This document shows positions 11,401 through 64,000 of a stretch of DNA of 64,000 bases, piece after piece. The notes beneath the pieces were generated by a model, which was not told where the DNA came from, ran no database searches, and saw only the letters and a program-made list of their open reading frames with translations. Numbering within the stretch: position 1 is the first letter of the stretch; every line of letters begins with the position of its first letter. The stretch is from Nyssa sinensis (taxonomy: Eukaryota; Streptophyta; Magnoliopsida; Cornales; Nyssaceae), in assembly GCA_008638375.1 (NCBI GenBank), contig CM018050.1, positions 31,548,220-31,612,219 of the forward strand. Reading direction: 5' to 3'. The translations under genes were made by a program, and so were the position numbers.

Positions 11401-14400
11401 TCACCTCAACCCTCCACCAATGCTTAAAATACGTTCACAATCAGACAGTCTACTCCATCAGAGGATGCCAACCGACCTCCCGAGAGTGCCATGCCCTCGC
11501 ACTCAAAGCTAAGGCCCCCAAATAGCAATTACTGCACGCCCGTGTGTGCAAGGATGCAATCTACCCTTGCTGTCACGAGGCAGAAGACTGTCCCTCCAAA
11601 ATTGAAGAACCATTGAGCCCCAGAGGAAGGGATAGCAGAGCCAAGCCTATAGGGGAGCCTATTAAAGTCCTGGTCAGCCCAGAGGATCAGGGACGTTACC
11701 TGCAGATAGGTCCCGACCTGACACATGCCGAGCAGGATGAGCTGGTCAAGTTTTTGAAGAAAAACCTCTCCGTATTTGCCTGGGAGACAAGCGACATGGA
11801 AGGGATAGATCCCGACCTGATCACGTACAGACTAATGGTGGATCCAGACCATCCACCAGTGAGACAAAAGAGAAGGCCTCTCGCTCCAAAACGGCATCAG
11901 GTCATCAACGACGAGGTTCAAAGGTTGCTCAACGCCAACATGATACGAGAGGTATCTTATCCTGATTGGTTGGCCAACACTGTTCTGGTCAAGAAGAAGA
12001 ATGGTAAATGGAGAGTCTGTGTCGACTACACAGATCTCAACAAAGCATGCCCAAAGGATAGCTTCCCTCTTCCACGAATAGATCAGTTAGTCGATGCAAC
12101 TGCAGGGCACGAGCTCATGAGCTTCATGGATGCTTATTCTGGGTACAATCAAATACAGATGCATCCTCCCGATCAAGAGAAGACTTCATTCATCACCGAA
12201 CGAGGTCTCTATTGCTACAAAGTGATGTCGTTCGGACTAAAGAATGCTGGAGCTACCTACCAACGTCTTGTTAATAAGATGTTCGGCTCCTTGATCGGCA
12301 GCACTATGGAAGTTTATATCGACGATATGCTGGTCAAGAGCCTAAGGAAGAGCAGTCATCTCCAACACCTAGCGCAAACCTTCGACATCCTCAGACAATA
12401 TAAAATGAAGCTCAATCCCTCAAAGTGCACCTTTGGTGTAACAAAAGGGAAGTTCCTTGGGTACATAGTCTCTCAAAGAGGTATAGAAGCAGACCCGACT
12501 CAGATCGGGGCTCTGATCGGACTGAAATCCCCAAAGGCCCGAAAGGACATTCAAGCTCTGAACGGCCGGATAGCAGCTCTCAGCAGATTCATCTCCAAAT
12601 CCACGGATCGGTGTCTACCCTTCTTCAAGGCTCTGAAAGGTAACAAATCTTTGCAATGGACTGACGAGTGTGAAAAATCCTTTCAGGAACTCAAAAGATA
12701 CTTGGCTTCGCCCGAGCTCTTATCAAAACCAATCCAAGGAGAAAGGCTGCTTCTCTATCTCGCAGTCTCTGAGAACGCTGTCAGTTCGGTACTAGTTAGG
12801 CAAGACAGGAGCGTGCAGAGGCCCATATTCTATGTCAGCAAGGCATTACTAGACACAGAAAAGAGGTACCCCGAAATTGAGAAGCTAGCCCTTGCTCTCA
12901 TAGTTTCTGCACGGAAGCTGAGACCATACTTCCAAGCACATCCCATAGAAATTCCGACTGCCTACCCACTGAAAGCAGTCCTAAGAAAACCAGAAGTATC
13001 AGGACGGTTGGTCAAGTGGTCAGTGGAACTGGGGGAGTTCGATTTGTCCTACATTCCACGAGTCTCAATTAAAGGGCAAGCCTTGGCAGACTTCGTCGCA
13101 GAATTCACTCCCGCGCTGCTAGGCAAAGCTCAAGTCTCAGACGAGGTGGGGACTTGGAAGTTGTATGCTGATGGATCATCCACTGACCGAGGTGCCGGAG
13201 CAGGGCTAGTACTACACTCTCCTGATGGACTTACAACCGAAAGGGCAATTAGCTTGGGGTTCAGAGCCTCCAACAAAGAAGCGGAATATGAGGCCCTTAT
13301 CTTAGGAATGAAGCTAGCTCAGGAGTGCGAGGTACAGAGCCTCGAGGTATTTTCTGACTCCCAACTGGTGGTTAGCCAGGTTCAAGGAGAATATGCCATC
13401 AAGGATGAAAGAATGCTCCGATATTCGGAACTAGTCAACTTGCTAAAACATTCCTTCCGAGCATTCTCAATCCAAAAAATAGAAAGAGGACAGAACAGCC
13501 GAGCCGATGCCTTAGCAAACATGGCATCTCACATGAAAACGGGGGTGGAGTCAACGATAAAGTTCTCTCACCAGCCAAGGCCTAGCACCGAGGAGATCCA
13601 GGTCGCCCAAGTCACAGAACAGCCTCAGAACTGGATGACTCCTATACTCCAGTACCTGGAGGAGGGACTCCTCCCAGAGGACAGAAATAAGGCAAAAAGA
13701 ATCCGCATCAAAGCAGCTCGGTATCTTGTCCTTAACGGAAAACTCTACCGAAGGTCTTACACTCAGCCATTGTTAAAATGCCTAGCACCTGAAGAGTCTC
13801 AATATGTCTTGGCAGAAATCCATGAAGGAATCTGTGGAAATCACAATGGGGGGAGAACCATAGCCCACCGAGCTCTAACCCAAGGCTACTACTGGCCTGG
13901 GATGCTGAAGGAAGCAAAGGAATATACTCGAAAGTGTGACAAATGCCAGAGGTTCGCCCCTTATCAGCATCAGCCGCAACATGAGCTCATCCCCATTACT
14001 AGCCCATGGCCCTTTGCACAGTGGGGAATGGACATCATAGGACCATTACCTAAAGCCAAGCCGAACAGGAGATACCTATTGGTGGCTGTTGACTACTTTT
14101 CAAAATGGGCCGAAGCAGAACCACTGACTCGCATCACTGAAAAAGAGATAAAGAGTTTTACTTGGAAAAATATAGTCTGCAGGTTCGGCATACCTCATGT
14201 GATCGTCTCAGATAATGGCACGCAGTTCACTGGGAAAATATTCAAGAAATTCTGCCAGGACCTAAACATCAAACAGCACTTTTCCTCCCCTGGTCATCCT
14301 CAGGCCAACGGGCAGGCCGAGGTCACCAACCGAACTATCCTCGACGCTCTCAAGAAAAGATTAGAGGAAGCTAAAGGGGGATGGGTCGAGGAACTCCCTG

Positions 14401-17400
14401 GGGCACTCTGGGCCTACAAGACAACCAGGAGAACTCCAACATCGGAAACTCCCTTCTCCCTAGCCTACGGAACTGAGGCAGTAATCCCTGTTGAGGTCGG
14501 CATGCCGACCTTAAGGGCTGAGGCTTTCAACAAAGAGACCAATGACCAACAACTAGCAGAAAATTTGGATTTGCTCGAAGAAAGAAGAGAGCAGGCCGTA
14601 ATCAGAATGGAAGCATATCAGCGCAGGATGGTTAACCGCTCAAAAATTGGCCTCAAACCTACCAATTTCCAAGTTGGGGACCTCGTCCTAAGAAGGGTTT
14701 TCCAGAACACCAAGGACCCCACCATGGGGAAGTTATCACCGAACTGGGAAGGCCCCTACAGAATTATCAAAACAGTTAGACCGACCACTTATTGGTTGGA
14801 AAGCATGAATGGGAAACCTGTTCCCAGGCCTTGGAACATGGAACATTTGCGAAAATATTATCAATAAAGTACTTTCTTTTTATTTCAACATCTTTCGTGA
14901 AACATCTCAATGTACAGACCTCTCAGGTCTGGTCCATCTTAATGCACAGGCTCAGGTCTGGTCCATCTCAAATGCACAGACGATAAGTCTGGTCCATCTC
15001 AAATGCACAGACTATAAGTCTGGTCCATCTCAATGTACAGACCTCTCAGGTTTGGTCCATCTTAATGCACAGGCTCAGGTCTGGTCCATCTCAAATGTAC
15101 AGACCTCTCAGGTCTGGTCCATCTTAATGCACAGGCTCAGGTCTGGTCCATCTCAAATGCACAGACGATAAGTCTGGTCCATCTCAAATGCACAGACTAT
15201 AAGTCTGGTCCATCTCAATGTACAGACCTCTCAGGTCTGGTCCATCTTAATGCACAGGCTCAGGTCTGGTCCATCTCAAATGCACAGACGATAAGTCTGG
15301 TCCATCTCAAATGCACAGACTATAAGTCTGGTCCATCTCAATGTACAGACCTTTCAGGTCTGGTCCATCTCAAATGCACAGACTATAAGTCTGGTCCATC
15401 TCAATGTACAGACCTCTCAGGTCTGGTCCATTTCAATGTACAGACTTCAGGTCTGGTCCATCTTAATGCACAGACTATAAGTCTGGTCCATCTCAATGTA
15501 CAGACCATTCAGGTCTGGTCCATCTTAATGCACAGGCTCAGGTCTGGTCCATTTCAATGTACAGACTTCAGGTCTGGTCCATCTTAATGTACAGACTTCA
15601 GGTCTGGTACATTCCAATGCACAGACCTCAGGTCTGTTCCATCTTAATAAACAAAATCCCTAAGTCTGATCTATCTTGATATATGAGGATGATGTTCTAT
15701 TGCAAGAACACGAAACTAGGTGCCGGCAGTTATAAACAGGCGAGGATAACTCTAAGTGCTCAGTCACACTGACCATCAAAAAATCCTTACAAATACAAGT
15801 CGCTCAGTTCGGCAATCAAGCTCAGATTCCTGCTCTAAAAGATCAGAGTAACTGTCTTGTACCAGTTTCTACGACTGTTAATCAGAGATCAGATTGATTA
15901 ATTATTATTCAAGTCATCTTTCTTAAAAGAAAATCCATGATTCAAAAACCCCTCCAATACCAAGAGTTCGGCACAAGTTGGTTATTACTACACATTACTT
16001 CAGGATTGCCATAAGTTAGTTCTGGAGACAACCCATGGTCGGTAAAAACAATACTCTGGGTTCCGAGCAGGTTTACTTGTGTCATAATACAAGCCTCAAA
16101 GGCCGAAGTCCGTTCATACACAACAAAACATTGATACATATTTAGAACAGAACTCAAAGATTGCCAACAATCAGAGAAAGATAGAGACAAAAAACTGAAG
16201 AGAAGATATTTTCATTAATATTTGAGCTCGGTTACAAAAAGATGAAACAGGACTACAAAAGTTTTCCCTAAACAAAGGGGCTTGCAGATCCGTCGTCCTG
16301 ATCACCATCCTCGTCCTCGTCATCGTCGTCAATCCCAGACAGGTCAATGTCCGGGTACTTGGCAAGAAGCTTGGACTTGAAGTTGTCATAACCGAGCTGC
16401 GCAATAGTATCACCCATCTTCTCAAGCTCGGTCTTCAACCTGGCCTCGGTCTCAACCTTGGCCTCATCAACCTTCTGAACAAGTGAAGACTGAAGAGCAC
16501 TGTTCTCCTCCTTCAGTTTGGTCAGGTCCTGAAGAAGGGAGTCTCGTTCAGATCGCAAAGAATCCCTCTCAAGTTTAATAGAATCCCTTTCGGATTCCAT
16601 AATTGAGAAGCAATTCCTCGCCTCCTTCAGCTCGTCCTCGGCTGTGGTGGCTTGAGATTGAGCCGTACCAAGCTGAAGCCTGGCTTCATCCAGCTCCTCC
16701 TCCAACCTCTCCACGGCCTGGAGATCCACCGTGGCCTCCATTAAAGCAGCCAAGCTATGGAGGGTCTGCAAAAATAAGAAGACGTATCAGTAAAGAGGAA
16801 AAAGAAGAAGAGCACAAAAGCAGAAAGGTCGGTCGTTACCTTCAGATGAGCCTTCATGGCACCGGCCACAGTCTTCTCAGTACCCTTCCTGGTGCTGCAG
16901 GAAGGGATGTCAGTACAAGGGGCCTCAGCCCAGAAATCTTCAATGGCCTGATGGACGGCCTTGTATCCATCAGGCATGTCAGTACCCATCTTCGCCTTAC
17001 CCCTCTGTTGAGATTTTTGGGCCGAAGAGGGGACAGGCTGAAGAACCGTCGTACCCCTCTGAGGGGCAGAAGAGGGTTCCCCGATCACCACCCCCTTTTG
17101 AGGGGCAGAGGAGGGCTCCCTGATCACAACTCCCCGCAGAGGAGGTCGGGAAGAGGGAGAAGCAGAGGAGACCGCCCCCTTCTTGGGAAGCACAGATGGG
17201 GAAGGGTCGGTCGTCCTCGTCTTCTTCGAAGAAGACGCAGTGGGAGGGGGCTGGCTAGCCACCCTCTTCTTCTTTGACGACCCCCATTTGCCAGCGAGGG
17301 ATTTGAGGACGTCGTCAACAACACCCTTATCCTTGGGAGGCATTGTAGGGCCTGAATGAAGAATGGCTCGGTAATCCCGGTTTGAAGTCTGGAGGAGTCT

Positions 17401-37397: not shown

Positions 37398-40300
37398 TTA
37401 ATGGTCCTCATGGCAGGCATCAAAATTGTCTATCTGGAGCTTATCATCTTCCACTTCAGTTATGTTCTCCACTTCCACCTGCCAAAACAGTGGTCAGAGA
37501 ATGATTATTATTTTCTTCTTAAATATGGTCAAATAAGATAATCAGATAAAAGGAAAATAAGGCTAATGTAATGCTTCAATGGATTTCCAATTTTCCATGG
37601 TCACTAAGATCAGAAAGTAAACCTCTTCGTTTCTAGGGACCCAATTGTTGGCCCTCAGGTCAAGAACATTCTGGACCATGAACCTCAATTGTCGTGCAAG
37701 TTGGGTGTCTGTTACCAGCTCCTTCAGTCGGCTGAAATAGACATCAGTCATTCGCCGAGACTTTGGTCTCTCATCGATCTGCTTACCAATGGTTTTAAAA
37801 AGTTGACATAATGCCTCCACATTTTCCTCGGCTGGGCAAGTTTGAGGATCATGTCCCAAAAGCTCCTATATCACACAATCATAGCATGTAGGTCAACTAT
37901 AAAGGACAATACAAGGGAATTCTTGTTGTCACCATGCATTTTTTTAATTAACTTCTGTGACTCAGAGGCTTTTATACTTGTTTTCAAACCTATGTGATTT
38001 TTAGAAGTGTCTTTAAAAAAGACGTCTTTAAACCAAAAATTTTATCCAAAGACGCTTCTAAAGTGTCTTTTCAAAAGACTCCTTTTGACTTAAAATAATG
38101 AACATTAATCAGTGATCAATTTTTCAAGACTTAGAACTTATTCAACAAGAAGGTGTATTTTGAAGAAATGTCTCTAAAGGCGTCCTTTGAAAAGATATTT
38201 CAGTTGAAAAAATTGGTTCAGAAACATTTTTTGAAAAGACACCTTTGAAAAATGCAAGAATTAACTAAAAAACTGCATGGGTCAGAAAATAAGAAAATAA
38301 ACTGCATGTCTCGACTAAAAAACTCCAATACAATCGCTAGATACTGGAAAGAACAGCTAGGGTGCGAACTCATTGAACTCAGTCTGACCTGAACAATGTG
38401 GTGGACAATCTTTTCAGGTACCATCCTCTGTTTCAGAAGTTCTCCAATGAAGCAGATGTTTCCAATAGTTCTCAGTTTGACAATTCTTTCTTTACACATT
38501 CGGTCAATTTCTTGCTCTGGGGCAGTCATCTGCCTAATTTCTGCCATCAGCTGATCCGAACATTCAAATGCTTCCTGGCAATTATTCAAGAGAACTCTCC
38601 TAAATGTAATCTCTCTCCCACCAGGTTCATCAGACAGGAAACGAGGAAGCTTCTCATTCAGGTCAGAGCAAAGGAGAGCAATCAAGGGACAAAATGTTGG
38701 CTCCAGCACAGCCTTATCGAAAATCAGTGACATGACACCCTGCAGTTGCAAAAAAGACTCCATTTTATTACAAGATAGAGAACACTAAAAACCTCCCACA
38801 ACTGAAGCGTCGTTCAGTTTTGGCAATTAATACTTAAAATTTTCAGTACTGAATATATTAACTGCATTTGATAATATAACATTAGTTATCACCTGGAAGT
38901 AAAATTTTAATAAGGATAGATGAAAGAAATTCATTCATCACTGAAACTAAATGCACTAAGTGAAAAGTTATTTTAAAATTAATTTTAATTTATAAATTTT
39001 TCTTCAATTCTACAAAGTTAAAACTTATATCAGTACTAAAATTGTATGGTACTCAATTTTTAGTTTTACCAAACAGCACCTAAGTCTACTAAGATCTCTA
39101 CATTGTGGAACCTTTAAAATATCAGGAGTTGTGATTCCGGAGTTGATCAGTTGACCTTTGAGAAAATCATACTTCTCTGGGGTCAAATTATTTAGAATCC
39201 TGCACAAAAATGTAACATTTGTCACAACAAGTACACTAAAGCCATTAAAAATAAAAAATAAATTGTCCAACAAACTCCTCCCCCCCCCCCCCCCTCCCAC
39301 CCTCCTCAAAAAAAAAATCTCTTAGTTAGATTGAAACTTCGAATTCCTATTATATTTCCATTGGTTTTGTCACATATCAAGATTTATAGCAAATTGTGGA
39401 AGAAAATCATTCAGATTTTCTCATTTATTTTTTTTTTTCTAAATAAAAAGATAGTGATTTTCATTGAGATCAGATTACAAGGAATCAAGGATCAAATATA
39501 TAGTTACCATTTCACTCTTCTAAGGACATATTCCTTTGCAGATAGATTTCGTCTCCTTGACACCCATGGCACTTTAGCCTTGGTAAGAGCAGGAACAGAT
39601 CCTACCTGGTTTGCACACAATGTTAGAGTGATCCCACCATGAATAATTATATCATTCCCAAATTTTTGAACTAAATTTTAACTTCTAAATGATGTGACAA
39701 TGCATCATCAAATGATGTGGATAATGTGACCTGATGATGCATCATTTGAGAGTCAAACATTCAAAAATTTGAGTAAAATAACATTACTTCAGCACCAAAT
39801 GAAAGCCGAACATATAAAAATAATAATAATAATCTAGCATACGAGAGAGAGAGAGATCAAATTCACTGCAATAGCTTTAAAAATGGGATAACATCATACA
39901 CATTGAAGTCCAGTACATAAAATTTGCATAACTCATATGTCATACTTGCACTATACAAAGAAAGAATGATTGTGTGATCAACATACACTTCTAAAATTTG
40001 TAAGGTAAATTTGACAGCTATTAGACCATCAATGTTGTATGGAACAAAATGTTGAGCAGTTAAGAAACAACATATTACTAACCTAAGTGTGGCCGAAATG
40101 TTAATTCATGTTTAACATCTTTAGGAGCTGGATTAGCATCAGAGGTGACTGAGGCAGCAGATGTAGCTGAGGCAGCATTAACTTGCTTGGGTGAAAAACT
40201 ATGAAGCTTGAAACATTTAGCTCTTGTATGCCCAGGTTTATCACAATAAGTGCAATGTGGTCGATTCCGACCTTTATTTTCGGTACTACTTTTTGAATTT

Positions 40301-41219
40301 TCCTTATTATTCATCCTTGTGTTAGATTCCAGTGGTTGGTGAAATTTCCTTTGGCAGCAATGAGCAGCACCATCTGGTTGGACTGGTGTGACACAATGAA
40401 TTTCCCTTTACTTTTCTTCTTGAAGTACAAGAGAATAAACCTTACCAACTGAAGGAAGAGGTTCAATAACAAGAATTTGACTCGAAGAACAACATATGAC
40501 TCATTTAACCCCATAAAAAATTGATAAATGTGTTCCCGTTGTTCATGTTGAAAAAGAACCTTAGAAGCACCACAAGTGCAATCAGGAACAATACTATTGG
40601 AAGCAAGTTTGTCCCAAAGAGATTTCAATTTAGTGAAATATGATGTAATGGAGGCTTGTTCCTGAATGGTATTGCATATAGATCATTTGATATGAAAAAC
40701 TCTAGTTGCACTTCCTTGAGAGAATCGGCCTTTGAGGTCATCCTAGACTTCCTTTGTCGTATCAGCATAGATGACGCTATTGGCAATATCTGAAGATATG
40801 GAATTTAATAACCATGATAACACCATGTCATTGCAGCGTAACCATTCAGCAATCTCGATAACAGAGGCATCTGGTTTTGTAAGACTCCCATTTACAAAAC
40901 TCAATTTGTTTTTGGCTGAGAGAGCCATTCTCATTGCGCGGCACCAAGTGGGATAGTTATCACCATTAAAGAGTTGATAAAGTAGAACAACACCCGGACT
41001 ATCAAATGGATGAAGATAATAAGGAGAATTGATATTGGAGCCATGTGATCTATTGTTTGTAGATATGACTGTTGTTGATTTAGTTATGGTATGTGAGAGA
41101 AGAAACAAAGAGAATCAATCAAAAAAAAAAAAATTTGTTTGGATGATTGTAAAAAAATGCAAAAAGGATGTCTCAGAATCGAGATGCTCTGATACCATAT
41201 AAAATAAATTTGTGAAGGA

Positions 41220-41255
<36 letters not shown>

Positions 41256-44200
41256 AATATATATTTGTTGTGTATTACAATGATCACAGAGAGCTCTTTA
41301 TATAGGAGAGTTGGGGAGCTATACAAGGCAATTAGAATGCTCTATAAGGAAAAGGTAAGAAAGGAAAGAGGAATATGCTAAGATTATACCCTAACCTATA
41401 TCATATACAGTAACCCTAATTATAGACCAATATTATGGTTTATAATGTTACATCTAACATCCCCCGTCAAACTCAAGATGGTAGAACAGAAATCAACTTG
41501 AGTTTGGAAACTAAATCTTGAAGACGCCCAGGAGGATGAGCTTTGGTGAAAATATCAGCAACTTGATTAGCGGAGGAGATTGGAAGAAGACAAACAGTGC
41601 CACGGAGAATATGTTGCAGAATAAAGTGACAATCAATCTCGATATGCTTGTTACGCTCATGAAAGACATCATTGTGAGTAATTTGGATAGCACTCTGATT
41701 GTCACAATGAAGAGTGGTAGCAGAGGTGGAAGGCACATCCATGTCTGCAAGTAACCAACGAAGCCAAAGAAGCTCCTAGGTGCCATTTGCAAGAGCACGA
41801 TATTTTGCTTCAGTGCTTGATCTGGCAATGACAGTCTGTTTTTGCTGCGCCAAGAGATGAGAGAAGAACCAAGAAAGAAATAGAAACCAGTGGTAGAACG
41901 ACGATCAATAGGATCCCCCGCCCAATCAGCATCAGAGTAAGAACGTAAATCAAGGGATGAATGAGCAGAAAAATGAAAGCCATGAAACATCGTGCCCTTA
42001 ACATAGCGAAGAATACGAAGGACAGGCTGCATAGTGAGTGGAGCGAGGAGCAGACAGGAACTGACTCACAATATGAACATCATGAGCAATATCAGGTCGA
42101 GTAACAATAAGATAGACGAGACTCCCAACCAGCTGGTGATATAAAGACGGATCGGTGAGCGGGACGCCATCCAATGGGGTGAGGCGAGAATTAGGCTCAA
42201 AAGGGGTAGGAGCAGTCTTAGTATCAGTGAGCCCGGCACGAGCAAGGAAATCTGAAGCATATTTTGCTTGAGAAAGATAGTAACCGTTAGAATAAGAAGA
42301 AATCTCAAGGCCGAGAAAATAACAGGAGAGATCCAAGGTCCTTCATTTCAAAATGTTGACTGAGAAACTGTTTCAAATCGGTAATGCCAGCGAGATCATC
42401 GCCAGTGATGATCATATCATCAACATAAAGGAGTAAGAAGATAGACCCACGAGCAGACTTGCGGAGAAAAAGGGCAGAATCCTGAGAACTGGAAGTGAAA
42501 CCAAAGTCTCCAATAACAGAGCTAAACTTGGTAAACCAAGCACGGGAAGCCTGCTTAAGTCTATAGAGAGCACGGCGAAGCTTGCAAACTTTATGAGGAG
42601 GATGGTTGTATCCAGGAGGATGGTTGTATAAAGACTTCTTCTTGAAGATCACCATTCAAGAAGGCATTTTTCACATCCATTTAAAATAAACCCCATTTGC
42701 GAATAGCAGTGACGGCGAGTAAACTGCGGCCAGAGGTGAGACGGGCAACAGGAGCAAAGATCTCTTCATAGTCAATTCAATATTCTTGGGTAAAGCCTTT
42801 GGCCACAAGACGAGCCTTGTATCTGTCAATAGAACCATCGGAGTGAGTTTTAATTTTGTAAACCCATTTGCAACCCATAGCCTTTTTGTTAGGAAGGAGA
42901 TCAACAGGATCCCAAGTATGTGTTTTCTCGAGTGCCTGCAATTCTTCTGTCATAGCTTGCTACCAAAGAGGGTTAGAACTGGCCTCACGATAAGATTGAG
43001 GCTCATGATGGGAAAGAATGGTAGAAAAACAATGATAGTCACGGAGACGAGTAGGTGGTTCCCTTACCCGGATAGAACGACGAGGTGGAGGACCCGTAGT
43101 GGAGATATCAGAGGATGAGCTGGAGTCAGGTGAATCAGTGGCAATGGCTGGTGGATCAATGTCAATGGCCGATGAGTCAGTTGTAATGGCAGGATCATCA
43201 GACAAAGGAGATGTGTCAGGAGAACCTGTAGGTAGAAGCTCAGAGGGCTCATCAGGAAATAAGTCAATAGAGGAATCAGTAAAGAATAAAGAAGTTGACG
43301 GGGAGGATACGTGAAAGGGAGAGAGAGAGGAGAACATCTTGTGTTCCCAAAAGACAACATGACGAGAAATACGAAGTTTCTTGGAGTAAGGATCCCAACA
43401 TCTGTAGCCTTTATGTTCAATGCCATAACCCAAGAAACAACAGAGACGAGCTCGGGATTCCAACTTAGAGCGCTCATGGGGTTGGAGTAGAACAAAACAA
43501 GGCACAACCAAAAACACGAAGAAGACTATAGTCAGGAGGAACACCATAAAGGCTGTTCATATGGAGATTGATTATGGATGACAGGGGAGGGGAGGCGGTT
43601 GATAGTATAAACAGCAGTAAGAGCAGCCTCCCCCCAAAAACGTTCAGGGCATGAGGCAAAGATGAGAAGTGCCCGAACAGTGTCCAGAATATGTCTATGC
43701 TTGCGTTCAGCACGACCATTTTGTTGAGAAGTGCCAGGGTAGGAACGATGGGGAAGAGTACCATGCTGACGAAGAGTATGTAAGAAACCAGAATCTTTAT
43801 ATTCCATGGCATTGTCGGAGCGGAAGACTTTGATAGAACAAGAAAACTGAGTGTTTATCATGCAGTCAAAGTCAAGATAGATTTGAGGTAACTCAGAGCG
43901 ATTTTTCATGAGATAAATCCAAGTAAAACGAGAATAATCATCAATAAAAATAACAAAGTATATGGATCCACCCATGGTAGAATGAGGCGAAGGGCCCCAA
44001 ATATTAGAGTGAATTAGATCAAAAGGAGCAGCAGAAACAGAATCACTTTTATTAAAGGACAAAGCAAGTTGTTTGGCAAGTTGACAAGAAAGACAATCAA
44101 TTTGTTTATTTTTGACAGATCCTAACAATCCACTAGAAATTAAGGTTTGTAGACGACTAGGAGAGACATGACCCAATCGGGAGTGCCAAAGCGTGGTAGG

Positions 44201-47200
44201 AGAAACCGTTCAGACAGAGGCTGCAGAGGAAAGTGGGGAAGTGAGCTGAGGAGGAATACGGAGATGGATGAGCTCAAACAAGCGTCCAACCTTACAGCTT
44301 ATCCCAATGGTCTTCCCTGTCTGTGGATCCTGCACACAACAACCAGAAAAAAGAGAAAAGAACATTGAGTCCAAGATCACATAATTGGCCAACAGATATA
44401 AGATTGAGGGTTAGATTGGGTATAAGATAGGTGCTAGGAAGAAATGTATGAGATGTGGAGACCTCACCAACATGACTAACAGACATATGTAAGCCATCTA
44501 CTGTGTGAATTTTGGGAATATGGGAACCAAGAGTTGTAGAAGTGAAAATACTAGGGTTGGAGGTCATATGATCGCTGCATGCAGAATCAAAATACCAAAA
44601 GGACTTACCAGAAGTGGCAGACATTGCAGTGGATGGTGAAGGTGCAAGAACCTGTTTGAGAATTGCTTCAAGATCGGCAACAGAGAAGGATGGAGAGGGA
44701 GACTCAGATAGAGGAGATCCTTCGGCAGCAGCAACGACAGAAGAGGAAGCAGGCCCTAGTTTGGATGGATGACCAGGTCGGCCCTTGGGCCAGTTGCCGC
44801 GGGACTGACGATTAGGATTTTTGTGGTAGTCATCTTGATAGTGTCCAGGTCCCAGTTTCTGATAGAAGCGGCATACTCTAGTAGGGCAGTCGAGGAAAAC
44901 ATGGCCAAAGAGATGACAATACTTGCAAACTTTTTGAGAAGATGAACTACTCTTGTGGGAAGTGGGCCGGAAGGTAGCAAGTGCAGTGTCGGTTGAAGAG
45001 GGATTGAGGAGACCAAGACGAGTTTCTTCAGAGAGCAGTTCAGAGATGGCTTGCTCGAGAGTAGGGAGAGGATTGCGGTGAAGCAAGGACGCTCGAATCG
45101 GCTCGAAGTGGGAATTAAGAGCCATAAGAAAATGAATCAAGTGTTGTTGATCACGGTAGGTAGCAAATTGATGAGCATCGGCAGTGTAGCGCCATGTGGG
45201 TTCGAATGGTGTCAATTGATCCCAAAGGGCATACATTTGGGATAGAAAATCATTAATAGATTGACCAGATTCCTGTCGTGTACGATGAAGAGAGCTGAGA
45301 AGTTGATATTGGTGAGCGAGGCCAGTAGTGGTGTAACGAGCTGCTAAGAAATCCCAGACTGATTTGGCTGATGAAATGCGACCAAATTGGAGGTTGATAG
45401 AAGATACGGTGGTGTTGCGAAACCACGTGATGATCTGGTGATTTTTACTATCGCAGTCGTCAAGTTGTTCAAGAAATTTGTCAGCTACCTCGTCCATGCC
45501 TTTCTGAGGTTCAATGATATTTCCAGTAATATAGCGCCACAACTTGCGACCTCGAAGAAAATTGGACATAGCTTGTGCCCAAGGAAGGTAATTTGAACCA
45601 TCCAGAATGACAATGATGGGCTGGGAGGCATCAGAACGTTCTATAGCCATTAAAAAGAGTAAAAAGTCATAGTAAAGGACTGTACGGACCAAATTGATCA
45701 AAACAGAGTCCAAAAATGGATTCAGAAGGTCCAAATTGGCTAGGAACGGGTCTAAACCTGTTCTGAACCGGTCAAAAAGGGGTTGAACTGGTCGTTGGAA
45801 GAGAAGACACAATGAACCGGTTCAGGCGTGAACCGACAGTGACCCTAGGGCTGATGTGGCAGAGCGCGCTGACGTGGCAAGCTGGTGGACCTGGATGCTG
45901 ACGTGGCAGATAATGGACCAGGGTGGTGACATGGCGGATGACGTGGCAAGAACAGCAAGCAGGCACGTGGACAGCGCGTTGTATGGCGCGTGAGGGCGCA
46001 TGGGGAGCACGTGGAGGGTGCGTGGGGAGCGTGGACGGCGCGTGTGAGAGGCTGGTGGCGTATGAGCAGGCTGTGAGTTGACTTCTAGGGGCACGTGAGG
46101 GGTGTTTGAGGTTCTGGTTTCGCGATTTGGGTAGATTATTCTTCAAGGATGGTTTCTGTGGGAAAATTGATATTTTTGGTGGTAAGAGGATGGCAGACAG
46201 ATCCCCTTTTGGTGATAGAGGAGAGGAATAGTGGTGGAATGGCGGCAATTGGAGGAGGAGCACTGCTCATAATGAGGGCGGCATAGTTTTGATACCATGT
46301 GAAGGAAAAGGTATATATATATATTGAATATATATTTGTTGTGTATTACAATGATCACAGAGAGCTCTTTATATAGGAGAGCTGGGGAGCTATACAAGGC
46401 AATTAGAATGCTCTATAAGGGAAAGATAAGAAAGGAAAGAAGAGTATGCTAAGATTATACCCTAACCTATATCATATACAGTAACCCTAATTATAGACCA
46501 ATATTATGGTCTATAATGTTACATCTAACAAAATTAAAGAGAGAAGAACAGAAAATAATAAACACAAGTTTTATGTAATTTGGTTTTGGTTGCCTACTCC
46601 ACACGATCTTTTTATTTTATTTCTCACATATGTACAAGCTTTACAATGAGAAGAATTATATACAAGAAGAAGAAGAAAAAAGTCATATAAGGTAAGATGT
46701 AATCAATCCATTAAATTTAGGAAAGAAAAATCTTCTCCTAATAAAAAAGGAAAGCCTTCCATAAAAAAAAAAATCTACTATAATCTTACAAAAAAATTAC
46801 AATAGGTAGAGATGCAAAACACTCAAAAAAATAAAAAAAAAATGACACTACTACTAAGGTCTTGAAATCTTGAAACTATTCTCATTTCCCTACCGACTCC
46901 TGGTATCTCAATCAGTTGATCCCTAGAGCATATTCTTTTCCTTGTTCTATAGTGTTTTTTGATCTCTCTCACATATAACTAGAAATCCTATGAAACCCTC
47001 AAACACATCTCTCATACGGTGATGAAACCAGAAATTATGGTTAGCAGTAGGTGAAAGCATATGTATTAGAATTTTGGGAGACCTTATAAAAATAAAAATA
47101 AAAATAAAATTGGGGACCGATTCCTAATTGTTAAAGAATTTTAGCAAAGTAATAGGAGAGAATGTAAGATTTTGAAATCTTTGCCCCCTAGCCCCTTGAG

Positions 47201-49159
47201 ATCTGCCAATGCTCTTATACAAATCGACTCCCTGCTATGACTACCTCTCACTCTCTCATAAGTCTCAACCAATAACCTAAGTGTTTATTAGAGGTTTCAA
47301 ACGGATCGTGCTAGGTACAAAAAGTTGAGGACGTCTGTTTCACATAGGCTAGTTGCCATTGAGGACATATTTCTAGCACGGGTCTATCAAGAGGTTGACC
47401 TCGATAACTCCTCTGGCATGGTTCCTGTCGATCATAAGATCCTTATTGGCTTTGAGACCAAGTCCTTAAGAATATCATGGATCACAATGATCTGTTGTCT
47501 CTTCTTTGATCACAGTCCACATAGCTTCAATCTCACAAGCTTCGTCATTAGGATTCTTGATCTCGTCTTTATCGTTTGCCATCAAGTCAAGCAATGTTTT
47601 TGCTCTCAGAAGCTATGAAGCATTGGAATCACCATCAAAGAGAACATTGGAATCCACCAATAAAGAAAATCTAGAATTTTATTAATCAATAAACTTATTA
47701 GCCTACACACTTACAAGCCTAAGCCTATTAATAATAAATATAAAAAAAAAAAAAATTATTAAAAATGACAAACAAAAACAACTAATTTAGGGTCCAAAAA
47801 CTAATCCAAAACAAGTAGGATCAAATTTGAAAGTTTCTAACTAAAATTATAACTAAAACTAGATTTTCTTAAAATAGTAAAAATATTAAAACAACCTTTC
47901 CAATCGACCATGATTGCTTGGGCATGATTCTGGCAAGTCTCAAAGCCGTCCTACATAAAAAATCAAGGTATATAATAACATATGGGTTTGTTTTTCCTTC
48001 AATTTTTCATCTTGATTAATCACAAAGTGAAGGATTTCTATCACCACACACTTCACTCTATTTTTTTCCCTTAAAAATATCAAAAGCTAAAACCAAGATC
48101 CAAATGGCTTTCTCCTCCTCCTTTTTTCGAAAAACCATATCTTTTTCACCATAGCCAAGCCCGAACTTCGCCAAACTATTTCAAGCTATGCTCGAATACT
48201 CGTCTCAAGCTCGAACCAAGACTAAATGCAGTTGAAGTTGACCTAGCCGAGCCAAGTAGCTGAGAAAGAGCAGCCCACATTCGGCTCAACTTGGTTCAGT
48301 TCCAACCCTACTAAAAACATCCAAACCAATAAAGAGTGCAACATTTAATGCATTACTCAGTTGAAATATAGCAAACTCAAACATATCAAAAAATAAAAAA
48401 GGAAAAATCAATTATGCCTTACCAGGTAATGCTAAAAATTATTTTCTATTGCTTAGTGCTTAATTAGTGGGCTTTTTTTTTTTTATTATTTTGTGGTTTG
48501 TTGGGGAGGGTGGGGATATTCAATAAAGTAAATTTACTAATACACCATATCATATATATCAAAAATACTGAAGGATGAAAACACAAGAGACTCTACAGAT
48601 TCTTCTAAGTAATCTAACAATAGGATATTACCTCCTGATCTGAAGAGATTTGAGCCCTTGCAAACTGGGACTTCAGTTGGTCCTGATGGAAATTTACTTT
48701 TTGAAGTCTGGACTTAAATCTACCAGAGAATTCTTTATTGTCTTGATGAGCTTTCCAGGATTTTTCCTCTCTAAAGGCATCCAACTGCACAAATTGGCCA
48801 TGCCAACCAAGATTGTTTGGCTCAGAGTAATGACCTTGTGATTGAGGCTGCAGCTAAAGACAAGTTCAAAAGTAGATGCTACTACTTCTAAAGAATAATG
48901 AATTAACAGGAAGATGATAAAGTAAACAAATGAGACGAGTTATATGTCCAACCCATTGCAAACAACAAGGCGAAGTTCAGTAAAATTCACCATAGAATCA
49001 TGAATTGTAAACAAAACCCATCATAACGAAGCTAGAGAAAAAGTAGATTATCAGCTCACATAACCAACCATCTCCATGACCCCAGCTTTGATATTCACCA
49101 ACAAACTTAGCCACAATTTCTTCTCTAATTTTTAATATATTCTCAGGGACATCAGCAAC
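37398..49159 (-). CDS. eIFiso4G-like part of the chimera: exons 4-10, MIF4G domain
   Basis: The exons spell an eIFiso4G order: [10 protein letters not shown] and GEYQSWG (exon 4), [14 protein letters not shown] and [10 protein letters not shown] (exon 5), [10 protein letters not shown] (exon 6), [17 protein letters not shown] (exon 7), [20 protein letters not shown] and NNCQEAFE (exon 8), [20 protein letters not shown] and [19 protein letters not shown] (exon 9). MIF4G is the HEAT-repeat domain that binds eIF4A and eIF3 in translation initiation and nonsense-mediated decay factors. All six exons 4-9 are free of stops. Small departures from the family include VKWILNN for VKGILNK and CFIGELL for RLIGELL. 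Exon 10 ([15 protein letters not shown]) resembles the start of the next family exon (VKAKTITEIH-type) but diverges and stops, so the usual linker and MA3 domain are lost. Intron 5 (39606-48631) is 9 kb because of copia insertions. Confidence 0.8.
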
Positions 49160-52144
49160 CTAGGTTAAAAGATCACACTTGGAAAAAAAATGTGAATGCT
49201 TATTAAAAAAAAAAAAAAATTACACTGAAGTTTTGACAAATACACTGCACTCTCCTGGAATTTCTAAAATTGTGCTGCACTCCCTTATTAGTATCTGTAC
49301 GAATGTTACCAAAGCGGTTGAATTACATTTTTAACCTTCTTATTATTTATTTATTAAATCAAAATTTTGCCGCTCAAAAGTCAAGACAATAAAAAGACCA
49401 AATTTCCCTTATTCTTATACAACCAAAATCTGCTATTTCCTGTGCCAAAACTCTCTGCTTCATTCAGTTCTATGGTTCCCAAATTAGACATAAAATTCAA
49501 ATTAAATTTTATACAAGTTCCATGTTTAAAATCTATTTCATAGGAACTATTTTGGACTTTGGAGACCTGTTTAAAAAAAAAAAATCAATTCATAAGCACA
49601 CATACAGACACGATTACATACATTCAATTCACGGGCACCATTTTGAAGAATTAATTCATAGCCACCATTTCGAGTACCCATTCTAAAGAATTAGTTTATT
49701 TATATCCATAATATTAATATAAACAAATTGAAGACCCATTTTATAACAAACACTTACAATTTCATAAAACACTTTCAAGCTCCATATATGGGCATATCTT
49801 CACAAAACACTTTCAAGCTCCATATATGGACATATCTTCACCCATCAATTGATACATGCAACAAATTGAAACAATTGAGTAACAAACAAAATTCAATTAA
49901 TAACAAATTTATGTTAAGAGGAGAAAAAATTTCGCTTAATGTTTGATCACAAATTTGAAAGTTTAAAAGAAATATAAAAAGTGAATAATAATTGATGATA
50001 TTTTTAATAAGTAACTAAGAATTTATTAAAACAAAGAAAAAACCAATTCGACAAATTCCAAGGAAAGGAAACTCCAAAAACTTTAAGTTATACAAAACAA
50101 ATTCTAAAAATTTGATAAAAGTCCCATTGAGGGGTGAAAATGAAATTAAAATAACGGTAAAGTGTGAAAAATTTTAAACTAGGGAGGGCAGAAACTTAAA
50201 TTAGCGGGCATATTTGATCCTTTTTTTTTTTTGAAAAGTTTTAAAAAAAATCAAATAAAAATAAATTGATAACCTCATGGTGGCTCTGTCTATATCTATA
50301 TCTATCTATATATATATATATATAAATATATATAATTTTCATTTAAACAACCATACACACTGATTCCCACAGCCATACATTTCACAAATTTTGATTTTCT
50401 TCTGTTTTTCAAGAACGAAAATAAACAAAATTATCGGGTTTTTTTTTCCCAAAAGTAGAAAAATTTGAGCTCTTAAATGAAAGGCTTGAAGATGGACATT
50501 GGACCACTTATTTTTGAAGGTCCATTACATTTTTTCATAACCTATAAGATTTTAGTTTAGCACACCAAGAAGAACTTACCTACCTTTTAAGATAACTGGA
50601 TTTTGTTTTATAGTTACCAAACAGATTTTGGCTGTGAATAATGATTATAAAAACTAAAAATAATATAAACATTTTTTAAAAGCACTAATAATTAATTCAT
50701 ATGTATTATGGGCCTTGAAGTATGACAAGAAATTTGAACTGAGAAACCTACCTCTGTTTGGTTTTCAACATTTTCGTTGCTTGAACTTGGAGCACAAACT
50801 GAACTTATCGGCTTCACGTAGACACCGATAGCTTCAAGGAATTCGGAAGCACGTCCATGGAATCCAACAATGACACCACCTTCCATTGGAAAGGAAAAGA
50901 TGGTGCCTGACTCGGAGCCAAAAGGTCCATATTTAGTCAGATTCGTCTTAAAACACAGTGATTTGATTACGACTGGTCCAAAAGGGTCGCCAATGCATTC
51001 AAACGTTCCACTTATACCAGTCAGATACTCCAAAGGACCGTCAATATCAACCTACACAAAGTTCACCAAATGAAAAGGTAAGAATACGCGTTTCAAAATA
51101 AATTTTTTTTAATTTTTTAAAATTTAGATTATTATATCCAAATATATTTTCACAATTTTTAAAAAATTAATTACAAAATTTTGAAATATATTTCAAAAAT
51201 TTTTTCAAAAAATTATATCTGAATCACTATCCAAACGAAGCCTAATAATTTGAAAACTTACATATTCTTACTCATAATGTGGGGAAAAAAAAAATTCTTG
51301 GTGCGAGATTTTGGCATTTTGCTTCTATGTGGGACCATGTGGTTCTAAATCAATACTCAAACTTAAATAGTGCGACAATCGTACTAGAGTTTTTTCATAG
51401 GGTAATGTTACTAAGAGCTTGTTGCGTATGCAAATGAGTTTCTTATCTGTTAAATCTTTTAGGGATTATGTTTGAGACAGAGATTAAAGTGATTTCAATA
51501 AATAGAAACATGATCCCTAAAAATCTAAAGGATAAGAGACATGTTCACATATGCAAACGAGCTCTTAGTAACATTACCGTATCGAAAACAACATACATTT
51601 TCTAATCTTAATATTGCTACACAATAATAGTAGTATTAAACTGGTGTTTGGGAAAGTGCATTTGGGGAAAATCATAGTTGCTTTTACAGAAATATATACA
51701 TTTTCTCATTTTGCAAACGCAAAAGCTCTCTCAAATTAGTCCGAAAAATAACATTTTCACTTACAAGAGGAAATTACAAGTGATGATTGTCATGCTCACC
51801 TTGTCGGTTCGATTGCCACCTTGACCACCAAACTTGTTAGAGTACTCCATTGAACCATCACCGTTGTCGCTTTTGAATACAATGGAATCAATAGCCCCTC
51901 CATGAATGATAATTATTTTTGTTATGTCACCTTTGGCCTTGTAATGCCATTCATTCCCACTTGAACCTCCCCATGGCCCAACAAATATACATCCTTCAAC
52001 ATGGCTACCCTCTCCATCTCCCCCTCCCTGCACAACAATCACAATCATCGTAACCGTATCTTAGCAACCTAACCAAGATCATGCATTATGTTACAGCACA
52101 CACGCAAAAAGAAGAGGAAAAAAATAAGGGAAATAAAGTACCAT
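37398..52144 (-). CDS. Jacalin lectin-eIFiso4G (MIF4G) chimeric gene, 10 predicted exons
   Basis: Predicted minus-strand exons: 52144-52142 (ATG only, least certain), 52027-51800, 51051-50752, 49159-49060, 48834-48632, 39605-39508, 39199-39112, 38739-38389, 37865-37623, 37478-37398. Every intron I drew has GT and AG ends, phases agree at all nine junctions, and the joined frame is 565 codons with no internal stop. Residues 1-177 form a jacalin-type lectin with an 18-residue linker ending [11 protein letters not shown]. From 178 the protein is eIFiso4G-like: [15 protein letters not shown], the [10 protein letters not shown] region, then a MIF4G domain (about 308-538) and a short acidic tail [19 protein letters not shown]. 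The N-terminal eIFiso4E-binding motif and the C-terminal MA3 domain of ordinary eIFiso4G are absent. The weakest junction is exon 4/5, where an AAG acceptor was needed to keep frame. Two separate genes, or a lectin gene next to an eIFiso4G relic, remain possible. Confidence 0.6.
39280..39294. repeat. Poly-C tract in intron 6 of the chimera
   Basis: Fifteen consecutive C (one T just before and one just after) form the longest single-base G/C run in the window. It lies about 80 bp upstream of exon 7 on the minus strand, where it reads as poly-G. Its length may be unreliable in assembly. Confidence 0.85.
40078..41108 (-). pseudogene. Copia-1 gag relic
   Basis: On the minus strand, [39 protein letters not shown] and WLLNSIS are typical of the N-terminus of a Ty1/copia Gag. 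A degraded middle and a zinc knuckle [14 protein letters not shown] (about 40255) follow. Several frame breaks separate the parts and nothing of pol follows. It lies in intron 5 of the lectin/eIFiso4G gene in the same orientation. Confidence 0.8.
41186..41210 (-). other. Copia-1 primer binding site and LTR end
   Basis: The reverse complement TGGTATCAGAGC (41186-41197) is an initiator tRNA-Met primer site belonging to the copia-1 gag to its left. The LTR of copia-1 begins at 41198 and is cut after 12-13 bp by the insertion of copia-2. It resumes at 46536. Confidence 0.75.
41211..41459 (-). repeat. Copia-2 3' LTR
   Basis: A 249-bp copy, longer than its partner because of a longer (TA)n tract near 41225-41253. 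Confidence 0.9.
41473..44391 (-). pseudogene. Copia-2 Pol, broken: integrase, reverse transcriptase, RNase H
   Basis: In minus-strand order: integrase with [30 protein letters not shown] and [15 protein letters not shown] (43532-44176); a Pro/Ser-rich linker (42960-43540); reverse transcriptase with [11 protein letters not shown] sequence, [14 protein letters not shown] and the catalytic YVDDMIITG (42305-42904); and RNase H with [19 protein letters not shown] and [11 protein letters not shown] (41473-42032). Stops or shifts occur near 42775, 42680, 42330 and 41800. Duplicated GGATGGTTGTAT sequence near 42600-42630 marks another small rearrangement. Confidence 0.85.
44292..45650 (-). CDS. Copia-2 Gag and start of Pol
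   Basis: The likely start is [11 protein letters not shown] at 45650. The gag core reads [20 protein letters not shown] through [19 protein letters not shown] and [12 protein letters not shown] zinc knuckle [15 protein letters not shown] follows. The copia protease region has [16 protein letters not shown], with Asp-Ser-Ala in place of the usual Asp-Ser-Gly, and ends [12 protein letters not shown] frameshift near 44345 then separates it from the GAG-pre-integrase segment, which continues in another frame as far as [14 protein letters not shown]. The protease DSA change and the frameshift suggest an inactive copy. Confidence 0.8.
   Translation of the reverse strand: MAIERSDASQPIIVILDGSNYLPWAQAMSNFLRGRKLWRYITGNIIEPQKGMDEVADKFLEQLDDCDSKNHQIITWFRNTTVSSINLQFGRISSAKSVWDFLAARYTTTGLAHQYQLLSSLHRTRQESGQSINDFLSQMYALWDQLTPFEPTWRYTADAHQFATYRDQQHLIHFLMALNSHFEPIRASLLHRNPLPTLEQAISELLSEETRLGLLNPSSTDTALATFRPTSHKSSSSSQKVCKYCHLFGHVFLDCPTRVCRFYQKLGPGHYQDDYHKNPNRQSRGNWPKGRPGHPSKLGPASSSVVAAAEGSPLSESPSPSFSVADLEAILKQVLAPSPSTAMSATSGKSFWYFDSACSDHMTSNPSIFTSTTLGSHIPKIHTVDGLHMSVSHVGEVSTSHTFLPSTYLIPNLTLNLISVGQLCDLGLNVLFSFFWLLCAGSTDREDHWDKL
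46298..46530 (-). repeat. Copia-2 5' LTR
   Basis: A 233-bp copy with TG...CA ends, bordered on the internal side by the primer site and on the outside by the AAATT duplication. Confidence 0.9.
46536..47200 (-). repeat. Remaining copia-1 LTR, right of copia-2
   Basis: AAAGAGAGAAGAACAGAAAATAATAAACACAAG followed by a GTAATTTGG...GCCTACTCCAC string resembles the terminal region of many plant copia LTRs on the reverse strand. It continues the LTR cut at 41210. The right border near 47200 is a guess; no target duplication was found for copia-1. Confidence 0.5.
47201..48631. other. Rest of intron 5 of the lectin/eIFiso4G gene
   Basis: A GC-richer stretch at 47290-47620 has a coding look on the minus strand ([20 protein letters not shown]) but contains stops, and I do not recognise it. 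The remainder is AT-rich intron sequence. Confidence 0.4.
50752..52144 (-). CDS. Jacalin-type lectin part of the chimera: exons 1-3
   Basis: Exon 2 encodes [19 protein letters not shown] and ends [11 protein letters not shown]. Exon 3 starts [18 protein letters not shown] and runs through [19 protein letters not shown] to EAIGVYVKP. These are the strands of one jacalin beta-prism; mannose-type jacalin-related lectins in plants are small cytosolic or nuclear proteins. The sugar-site loop that usually ends in YLDAIG reads FLEAIG here, replacing the ligand-contacting Asp by Glu. After the domain the frame does not stop: 18 more residues lead to a good donor, CAGAG|GTAGGT. A typical single-domain lectin would end near YVKP. 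The start is set by an ATG directly followed by a GTAC donor at 52142, with a TATATATA tract about 65 bp upstream. Confidence 0.8.
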
Positions 52145-61644: not shown

Positions 61645-61650
61645 TTAGAT

Positions 61651-64000
61651 ATGGATCAACGGAGAGATTTACCTGAGCCAGGCCCTAGCGATCCATCGGT
61701 GTTGTACTTACAGCATCAGCATCGCTCGACCACTATTTGGGACGGTCATGACTTGCCCTCATTGCATTGTCGGCGCATTGAGGCATCATTACGTAGAGTA
61801 GTATGTGTGTTAGACACACGGGTATTGCGATGTTTGATGAGGGCCGGGTTTTATGGGTTGTATCGGTTAGGGTTCATGGCGCTAGATTGGTCCCTCATCA
61901 CTGTACTGGTCGAGCGGTGGAGAGTTGAGACTCACACATTCCATTTTCCTGTGGGTGAGGCGACTATTACACTACAGGATGTTTCATTATTACTTGGATT
62001 GCCGATTGATGGCGACGCCGTTACAAGTCAAGAGGTGCAGAAGCCTATTCCCGAGTGGCAGCAGTTGTGTCGCGACTTGCTCGGGATTGCTCCACCTGAT
62101 TCAGCTTTTGATGGATCACGTCTTAGGCTGAGTGCATTGACGCACCATTTATCTCAGCCGATCCCTAATGATGCTGACCAGAGATTTATCGAGGCGTATA
62201 GCAGGACATACATTTTGGTTCAGCTAGGTGGGTGCCTTTTTGCAGACAAGTCATCCAGTAAGGTCAAGTTGATGTTTTTACCACTACTGCGGGACCTTGA
62301 CGCAGCGGGCAGGCTTAGCTGGGGTAGTGCAGCTTTAGCCTGTTTATACCGTGAGCTGTGTCTTGCTACTAGGGCCGAGGCATCATCTATTGCTGGCCCA
62401 CTTGTTCTTCTACAGGTGCGAATTGTTAACATTATGTTTAACATTTTATGTTCAATATTTATAAAATGAATTAAAGGTGTCATCCCATTTATGTTGTTAT
62501 ACTTTCTCCAGCTATGGGCTTGGGAGCGACTTCGTCATGTTCGACTTGAGCGTCGTGATGTTCATCCACGTGCACCATCCCCACCGATAGCTGCAGGCTT
62601 ACCTGGTGCTCCCCTAGGATGCAGGTATATAGTATGCTTTCAATTATTATACTTCATTTTTGTTGTATTGGATTACTTATTTTTGGACACGAGTAAAATT
62701 TAATTGAATATATAGTTTAGCTTACGTAAAATTTGTCAAGTATAGGTGGGATGTCCCTCACTACCATAAGGACACCCCTGCCCACAGTCTACGCCACTAC
62801 CGAGACCAGCTAGACCAGATGAGGCCGGAGCATGTATGTACATGATTATGTCATATAACATGTGTACCTCAATTAAGATATAAAAAATGGTATTAGTATT
62901 CAAACTGACAACATGTATTACATAATGTAGATGATCTGGGAGCCATATACTGCAGATGTCATGCAGTCATTGCCCGATTACTGCCTCCGTGGTCAGGCGA
63001 TTTGGGGAGCACGGGTGCCACTTATTTACTTTGCAGTTGTTGAGTGGCACTTCCCAGACCGCGTACTACGGCAGTTTGGAGTAGTGCAGGGCATACCAGC
63101 TTCGTGTGATTCTTCCCAGGAGCTACATCGTCTCGACATGCGAGGGAGGCATGGATGTGATTGGTCGGATCATCACAGGGCATATATCGGCCAGTGGGAC
63201 CACCGTCTCGACCACGTCGTGTTTGGGGATGGTTCAGATAGAGCTACTGATCAGTGTACCGATGACTATATGCCCTGGTACACAGGGATTACACGGAGAT
63301 TAATCGGGCCAGTTATTCAGATGCCAGCGGTTGGATTCCAACCTGTTGGCAGCATTCGACATCTGCTGGTATAAGAAATATCTCTTCTAGAACTCACTCC
63401 TGACTTGCGCCTAATTCTTATTATTTATTAATGAATTTAATTTTTTCAGGAGGATACAATGACACGCATATCTCAGATTTCAATTATCCCCGAGATTGGT
63501 GATACAGTTCATCAGGACTTATTCCACGTGGTCCGCCATATCCATGCCATGTCTACAGCTATGCTTGGCTGCTGTTGACGAGGATCGGCGAGTGCGTGAC
63601 GGGGAGGGCCAGCAGTACGCACATTCAGCGCCATCAGCCAGTCACCATACTCAGCCACAGTCACAAGAGCCTGAAGACACGAGTTTTCATCATTCTATGA
63701 GCACACCTGTGGCTGATCATGGGATTGCTTCACACCATTCCTCCCCTGTACCAGATCCGTTTTCCTCATACTACATCATGGAGCCTGACTCTGTGCATGT
63801 CAGGGGTGATGATTGGGTGGAGGAGCCCGTTGGTGATGTTCCAGTGCCAGAGGTGGCACAACATGGGATGGAGACACAGTGTCTTACACAGGCTGCTGAC
63901 ATGGAGGTGCAGCCAGAAATGCAAGACGGTCGAAGTGATGTTATAGTGTACAAGAGACGACGGACTGCACGAGCCAGACCACGTGAGCATGGACGAGGTC
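61651..64000 (+). CDS. Plant mobile domain (MAIN-like) protein, 3' end outside window
   Basis: Exons 61651-62415, 62512-62624, 62746-62833, 62931-63368 and 63450-64000 or beyond have GT-AG introns and matching phases. Exon 1 carries the plant mobile domain (PMD, PF10536 from memory): SVLYLQHQHRSTTIWDG, FYGLYRLGFMALDWSLITVL, VERWRVETHTFHFPVGEATI and LQDVSLLLGLPIDG. Exon 4 reads MIWEPYTADV and then YCLRGQAIWGARVPLIYFAV. This is the layout of MAIN/MAIL and 'PP7 long form homolog' proteins, nuclear factors linked to transposon silencing and found both as host genes and inside transposons. In exon 5 the frame meets TGA at 63576-63578, while the +1 frame stays open from 63568 (AVDEDRRVRDGEGQQ) to the window edge. 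A one-base shift near 63560 has therefore either broken the gene or is a sequencing error. Confidence 0.8.

Follow-up and report, generated by a model that had tools for sequence, protein, structure and literature searches.

DAP5/p97 and PAIP1 are MIF4G proteins without the eIF4E-binding scaffold role, and DAP5 retains MA3; TRIMCyp is a primate fusion of TRIM5 and cyclophilin. In plants, defence genes are known to have arisen from jacalin chimeras, and the parts of the survey covered here describe RTM1 and JAX1 as antiviral, propose decoy roles, and give 172 partner superfamilies of jacalin domains, among which MIF4G is not named (PMC5536079). eIFiso4G is known to make plants susceptible to viruses: in the sections of PMC6806492 covered here, silencing one eIFiso4G copy leads to Plum pox virus resistance, and eIFiso4G mutations are cited in rice yellow mottle virus resistance. 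The openly licensed literature gave no relevant paper on jacalin with MIF4G or eIFiso4G (the sole MIF4G match is unrelated by title), and the term MIF4G is absent from a 2025 chimerolectin review (PMC12355970).

Here we analyse a window of 64,000 nucleotides (G000:C8:31548220-31612219) within the 1.0-Gb Nyssa sinensis genome, whose minus strand carries, from a start ATG at 52144 to an end at 37398, a gene with a jacalin head and a MIF4G body. The chimera is genuine and predates the Nyssa sinensis genome, the two parts having been fused before the Nyssa-Davidia split. The initial annotation of this DNA was not aware of any described plant protein joining the two domains; we also found no paper, but four such sequences, from two genera, are already deposited. 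The features of the locus are the following.

52142..52144, minus strand: exon 1, start codon only, then a GT donor.
51800..52027, minus strand: exon 2, first half of the jacalin domain; both ends phase 0.
50752..51051, minus strand: exon 3, second half of the jacalin domain and linker (ends in 11 residues); donor phase 0.
49060..49159, minus strand: exon 4, the eIFiso4G VADVPEN exon, up to the parental donor; frame broken; skipped in GenBank model P0002.
49062..49069, minus strand: GGTTGGTT, a 4-nt tandem duplication relative to intact C6 (GGCAAT) and C4 (GGCAAC), before gtgagc.
48632..48853, minus strand: exon 5, the LQPQSQ linker exon of eIFiso4G, phase 0; a cryptic acceptor would move its start to 48834.
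41241..46530, minus strand: copia-like retroelement (labelled by eye) between repeats 97% alike in the exon 5-exon 6 intron; frames broken.
39508..39605, minus strand: exon 6, where the MIF4G region begins.
39112..39199, minus strand: exon 7, MIF4G.
38389..38739, minus strand: exon 8, MIF4G; contains an in-frame ATG.
37623..37865, minus strand: exon 9, end of MIF4G.
37398..37478, minus strand: exon 10, a remnant of the last exon (MA3 end) of the parent, frameshifted so as to give the new tail DACHEDH and a stop.

The lectin head is recognized by Pfam as a Jacalin domain with an E value of 9.9e-37 and 126.8 bits (cut-off 22). Its ATG|GT start is also found in two related Nyssa loci described below, locus B and the P0213 gene. 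At the position of what we take to be the GxxxD sugar-binding loop of jacalins, the window lectin reads SEFLE, an altered loop lacking the jacalin-type GxxxD pattern; P0004 and B read SQFLE, P0020 reads CQFLQ and the Parkia lectin GRAGYYLDALG. A similarly altered loop is present in P0231 (Rhododendron, named RTM1-like), which has no MIF4G.

As initially annotated, the last lectin exon stays open through the linker up to a GT donor after CAAACAGAG, and linkers related to that of exon 3 are present in P0004, P0020 and P0213. The minus-strand exon that follows is eIFiso4G sequence starting VADVPEN; the exon-3 donor and the exon-4 acceptor are both phase 0, and these equal-phase introns bear out the proposed join at exon borders on both sides and would fit exon shuffling. 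The same junction (ENVQ|VADVPENLL) occurs in P0004 of Davidia involucrata, where exons 4 and 5 are in frame. When the intron was inspected for a breakpoint, its last 52 nt aligned with the C4 acceptor end with a score of 46, the best of 100 shuffled C6 introns reaching 55. The MIF4G domain has a Pfam E value of 1.1e-46 and 159.5 bits (cut-off 30.8). All eIFiso4G-copy exons of the window have GT/AG borders and are free of stops in their frames, a claim that stands, and exons 4-9 align exon by exon with the Nyssa eIFiso4G genes on C4 and C6. A processed retrocopy, or processed pseudogene, is rejected, since the introns between exons 4 and 9 are retained. The N-terminal piece of eIFiso4G has no match within the window, and no MA3 exons were found in it, two intact-gene pieces spanning the MA3 region having matched only 15 aa and 34 aa.

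The whole gene had been proposed to form a ten-exon GT-AG chain of about 564 codons. Exactly 564 codons are indeed obtained with the parental exon-4 donor and a cryptic, non-parental exon-5 acceptor 19 nt downstream, but splicing of exons 4 and 5 at the parental sites leads to a stop at codon 221, and use of a nearer GATG|gt donor in exon 4 to a stop at codon 218. In the intact C6 gene exon 4 ends with GGAGATGGCAAT|gtgagc, in phase 0, and in the C4 gene with GGCAAC|gtgagc (that is, GGAGATGGC followed by AAT or AAC before gtgagc), whereas the window exon 4 ends with GGAGATGGTTGGTTAT|gtgagc. This 4-nt duplication throws exon 5 out of frame when it is spliced to exon 4 through its parental acceptor; the break does not stem from a deletion in exon 5. 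Skipping exon 4 gives a protein of 537 aa (exons 1-3 and 5-10), identical throughout to the GenBank model of the locus (P0002, F0562_015620; jacalin and MIF4G), and skipping both exons 4 and 5, as in P0020, leaves an open frame of 463 aa. The window chain is thus open, though not via the parental splice sites, and we judge exon 4 to be a dispensable, decaying part of the gene.

The exon 5-exon 6 intron is about 9 kb long, and the repeats that bound its copia-like element are 219 nt each. At 40078-41114 (minus strand) the same intron holds frames that look by eye like another copia-type gag, including a zinc knuckle. Elsewhere in the window, adjacent open frames of 769 and 1,113 aa at 9216-14867 (plus strand) look by eye like a Ty3/gypsy gag-pol, a frame of short repeated peptides (SGLVHLKCTD-like units) at 15066-15587 (plus strand) is probably a tandem DNA repeat, and a 274-aa frame at 61645-62469 (plus strand) appears to resemble plant mobile domain/MAIN-like proteins. 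Further eIFiso4G exon-5-like pieces, with stops, lie at G000:C12:21455861-21456072 and G000:C16:19666515-19666729.

A jacalin search gave 24 matches, all of them listed. Two further protein searches (the best 120 of 913 and the best 120 of 450 matches) listed 212 distinct proteins. Among these 212, Jacalin and MIF4G Pfam domains occur together in four, P0002 and P0121 of Nyssa and P0004 and P0020 of Davidia, and the pairing is confined to these two genera among the matches listed. P0020, also of Davidia involucrata, joins the lectin directly to exon 6 (NQKE|VGSAPAL). P0004 and P0020 are UniRef entries only, with no contig. An Illumina transcript assembly of Davidia is deposited as GHES00000000, according to the part of PMC6760192 covered here, and we infer that both sequences derive from this assembly, which would fit their status. 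In the same searches P0001 and P0005 each have at least two tandem eIFiso4G MIF4G units, and several more high-scoring proteins among the best 120 of 913 have MIF4G without MA3 (PF02847); it seems that eIFiso4G exons are readily duplicated in tandem or merged in gene models.

Three other Nyssa loci are informative. Locus B, on C8 about 250 kb from the window gene, has exon 2, exon 3, a decayed exon 4 and exons 6-9 in order; it carries a +1 insertion in exon 3, and its exon 6 is damaged and duplicated. We take P0121 to be its gene model. Locus A (C8:31.4173-31.4196 Mb) duplicates window exons 6-10 with 92.8% identity over 3,924 nt, introns included, and shares the exon-10 frameshift of the window gene; its exon 9 contains a stop, its exon 7 an insertion, and its exon-6 acceptor reads CCGG instead of CCAG. 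No lectin exon was found in the 30 kb upstream of locus A. The lectin part of the window gene and its promoter have a tandem duplicate (84% over 2,234 nt) 30 kb upstream, the P0213 gene; its lectin donor is at the same place, and no eIFiso4G exons lie between the two genes.

In a tree of 25 MIF4G sequences, in which W is the window copy, P0004 groups with W and A as (P0004,(W,A)) with support of 100/99, and B groups with P0020 (100/100). P0004 was marked by the tree program as a long branch of unsure placement. Weakly supported nodes (80/59, 80/75) bring the B/P0020 pair closer to Camellia and to the intact genes of Nyssaceae. The lectin tree also pairs B with P0020 (95/100); it does not pair W with P0004, and its internal support is weak. 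Since the MIF4G tree pairs each Nyssa chimera with one from Davidia, two fused lineages are older than the Nyssa-Davidia split. Several features speak for a single fusion: the exon-3 border and the linker are alike, the exon-4 remnant of B is at the matching place, and all four chimeras have M changed to L at one position conserved in at least 97% of 147 eIFiso4G sequences. Against a single fused clade stand the placement of B/P0020 in the MIF4G tree and the codon branch model described below, in which the topology with B beside the intact genes fits slightly better (-2865.0 with one parameter fewer, versus -2867.2). One or two fusion events may lie behind the two lineages. As to the split, the parts of the literature covered here address the placement of Nyssa and Davidia in Nyssaceae (PMC5601906) or hold Davidiaceae separate, as a sister family (PMC5721659), and the published dating found there concerns only Cornaceae-Nyssaceae, over 62.22 million years.

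The chimera lacks the N-terminal region of the scaffold. The motif YTRDQLL (YTRYQLL in P0026), of the form YxxxxLphi, which we take to be the eIFiso4E-binding motif, lies in intact genes in the exon immediately before the join; it was found in all three intact Nyssaceae eIFiso4G tested and in none of the four chimeras. An AF2 model of the chimera (overall pLDDT 66.7, pTM 0.52, alignment of 36 rows) has block means of 85-96 at residues 271-500 and 45-83 at the lectin (31-140), with a disordered linker of about 120 residues. With this model, the top Foldseek matches were the HEAT1 of eIF4G (with eIF4A) and DAP5; the lectin part matched jacalins such as the Parkia seed lectin, but at an rmsd above 10, which marks this half of the model as poor. 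The prediction suggests that the MIF4G fold is retained in the chimera.

A codon branch model was fitted to exons 6-9 (259 codons, 7 genes). Background omega in intact eIFiso4G was 0.10. With the fused genes placed together, or with B placed beside the intact genes, the W/A stem had an omega of 0.55 (2dlnL 4.0 versus 1) or 0.85 (0.17), and the terminal branches 0.78 or 0.92 for B, 1.46 or 1.16 for W, and 0.64 or 0.73 for A; none of the omegas of B, W and A is distinguishable from 1, and the W/A stem differs under one topology only. The stem of all fused genes is short and its omega, at the upper bound (20), is not interpretable. Pairwise maximum likelihood on the exons gave 0.61 for W-B (p 0.015), 0.94 for W-A, 0.50 for W-C4, 0.39 for W-C6 and 0.21 for C4-C6, and on the jacalin part 0.52 for W-P213 (p 0.03), 0.63 for W-B (p 0.11) and 0.83 for P213-B (p 0.48). 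By NG86, comparisons of W and B with one another and with the intact genes ranged from 0.32 to 0.51, with W-A at 0.76. Since the W-A split, 1 synonymous and 12 non-synonymous changes fall on the W branch and 6 and 14 on the A branch, 6 being ambiguous. At the 133 positions conserved in at least 97% of the 147 eIFiso4G, changes number 19 in W, 35 in P0004 (4 of them gaps), 21 in P0020 and 25 in B (1 gap), versus 2 and 1 in P0030 and P0036, both within the 147. Strong purifying selection on the MIF4G half is rejected by the W-A values (0.76 by NG86, 0.94 by ML) and by branch-model values near 1 for W and B.

The initial annotation had argued that an unselected relic of this length should contain stops. 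We simulated neutral change of C4 exons 6-9 in 5,000 runs, with 19 indels per 165 substitutions, the ratio seen in noncoding sequence between W and A. With 60 substitutions, roughly the number implied by 42 amino-acid changes along the path to W after its split from P0004 (tree lengths times 260; our arithmetic), the fraction of runs without a stop was 0.155, without a frameshift 0.0018 and with neither lesion 0.0002; with 88 and with 102 substitutions, 0 of 5,000 runs were free of both. The coding sequences of W and A differ by 39 substitutions and one indel, so the coding indel rate may be lower, and we estimate that the true neutral figure could be about 0.01. The argument from missing stops therefore mostly holds in simulation, but it does not amount to strong constraint, amino-acid change being near neutral. 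Exons 5-9 of W have neither stop nor frameshift, while in equal time the headless sibling A gained a stop and a frameshift and lost its exon-6 acceptor. We conclude that in exons 6-9 the frame has been retained beyond neutral expectation with residues changing almost freely, a pattern compatible with relaxed constraint, with diversifying change or with a function lost recently.

We give a probability of about 0.55 to the following reading: an old fusion, now decaying in Nyssa, would act as a competitor or decoy for eIFiso4G, perhaps with an antiviral role. Before the Nyssa-Davidia split, a jacalin gene would have contributed its promoter, start and lectin exons, placed in front of a 5'-truncated eIFiso4G copy via phase-0 introns. 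The fusion protein, if produced, could still contact eIF4A or RNA through its MIF4G module but would be unable to form a cap-binding complex, and so might compete with eIFiso4G or act as its decoy; the lectin module may serve interaction or defence, as it does in other chimeric jacalins. In Nyssa, any protein from the window copy would most simply arise by exon-4 skipping, and this copy looks relaxed or on its way to being lost. We favour a decoy or competitor on account of the decoy proposals in the covered part of PMC5536079 and the virus roles of eIFiso4G in that of PMC6806492.

That the Nyssa loci are relics of a former fusion gene, the GenBank models merely threading open exons, is possible though somewhat doubtful. 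Amino-acid change near neutrality, the broken exon 4 of W, the frameshift and duplicated exon 6 of B and the copia-like element within the intron all agree with it; yet W exons 5-9 are lesion-free while A decayed, a modest contrast given the short W-A age, and neutral change would be unlikely to have left the frame open along the longer branch. Far less credible is an artefact, with the Davidia chimeras as short-read assembly errors or run-on transcripts and the Nyssa models as merged genes. Gene merging is a common annotation error. The Davidia assembly is an Illumina one, according to the covered part of PMC6760192, but the two Davidia sequences join at exon borders that match the DNA of two Nyssa loci, and the eIFiso4G N-terminal piece is without a match in the window. 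A plain gene-merging error is rejected because two Davidia sequences and Nyssa locus B have the architecture in common.

Short MIF4G-only proteins do occur in plants, and the MIF4G exons might be expressed alone from an internal promoter, the lectin being a separate gene that ends in its intron. The in-frame ATG of exon 8 would suit such a protein, as would the short lectin tail before a stop obtained by reading past exon 3 into intron 3; we consider this very improbable, as the P0004 and P0020 junctions are in frame and the phase-0 match is found in both lineages.

A more specific form of the decoy reading, by analogy with TRIMCyp, would combine an RTM1/JAX1-like antiviral lectin with the MIF4G of eIFiso4G, a host factor for potyviruses and a sobemovirus. 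We regard it as unlikely; if true, viral proteins would be lured off the real factor, or the lectin's restriction brought to them, and the bait would be expected to show fast, diversifying change. More broadly, a natural jacalin-eIFiso4G fusion in two genera and two duplicated lineages offers a case in which decoy evolution can be tested beyond the NLR receptors, and illustrates how a housekeeping scaffold can be rewired, with a cap-complex motif lost and a lectin head gained. Even a decaying relic would be the record of an old fusion at exon borders, one that can be compared with intact relatives and with a sibling copy lacking the head.

Compared with known systems, the chimera is closest in design to the monocot chimeric jacalins (dirigent-jacalin proteins such as OsJAC1) and others, which likewise form lineage-restricted families joining jacalin to an unrelated domain (PMC5536079, in the part covered here), except that its partner is MIF4G and theirs dirigent, kelch, F-box or kinase. 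P0002, P0004, P0020 and P0121 each hold jacalin in one frame with an unrelated domain; at the window locus this takes exon-4 skipping or the cryptic acceptor. Relative to plant eIFiso4G, the scaffold of the eIF4F isoform, the chimera lacks the YTRDQLL N-terminus and MA3 and has a lectin head instead. With the antiviral RTM1 and JAX1 of Arabidopsis it has the jacalin domain in common, its own antiviral action being putative. Like DAP5/p97 and PAIP1 it has MIF4G without an eIF4E-binding motif, DAP5 being a top match of its predicted fold, but neither of these contains a lectin. Finally, as in TRIMCyp, a possible defence module is attached to a duplicate of a host factor used by viruses, though with other domains, in another kingdom and with an antiviral role that in the chimera is putative.
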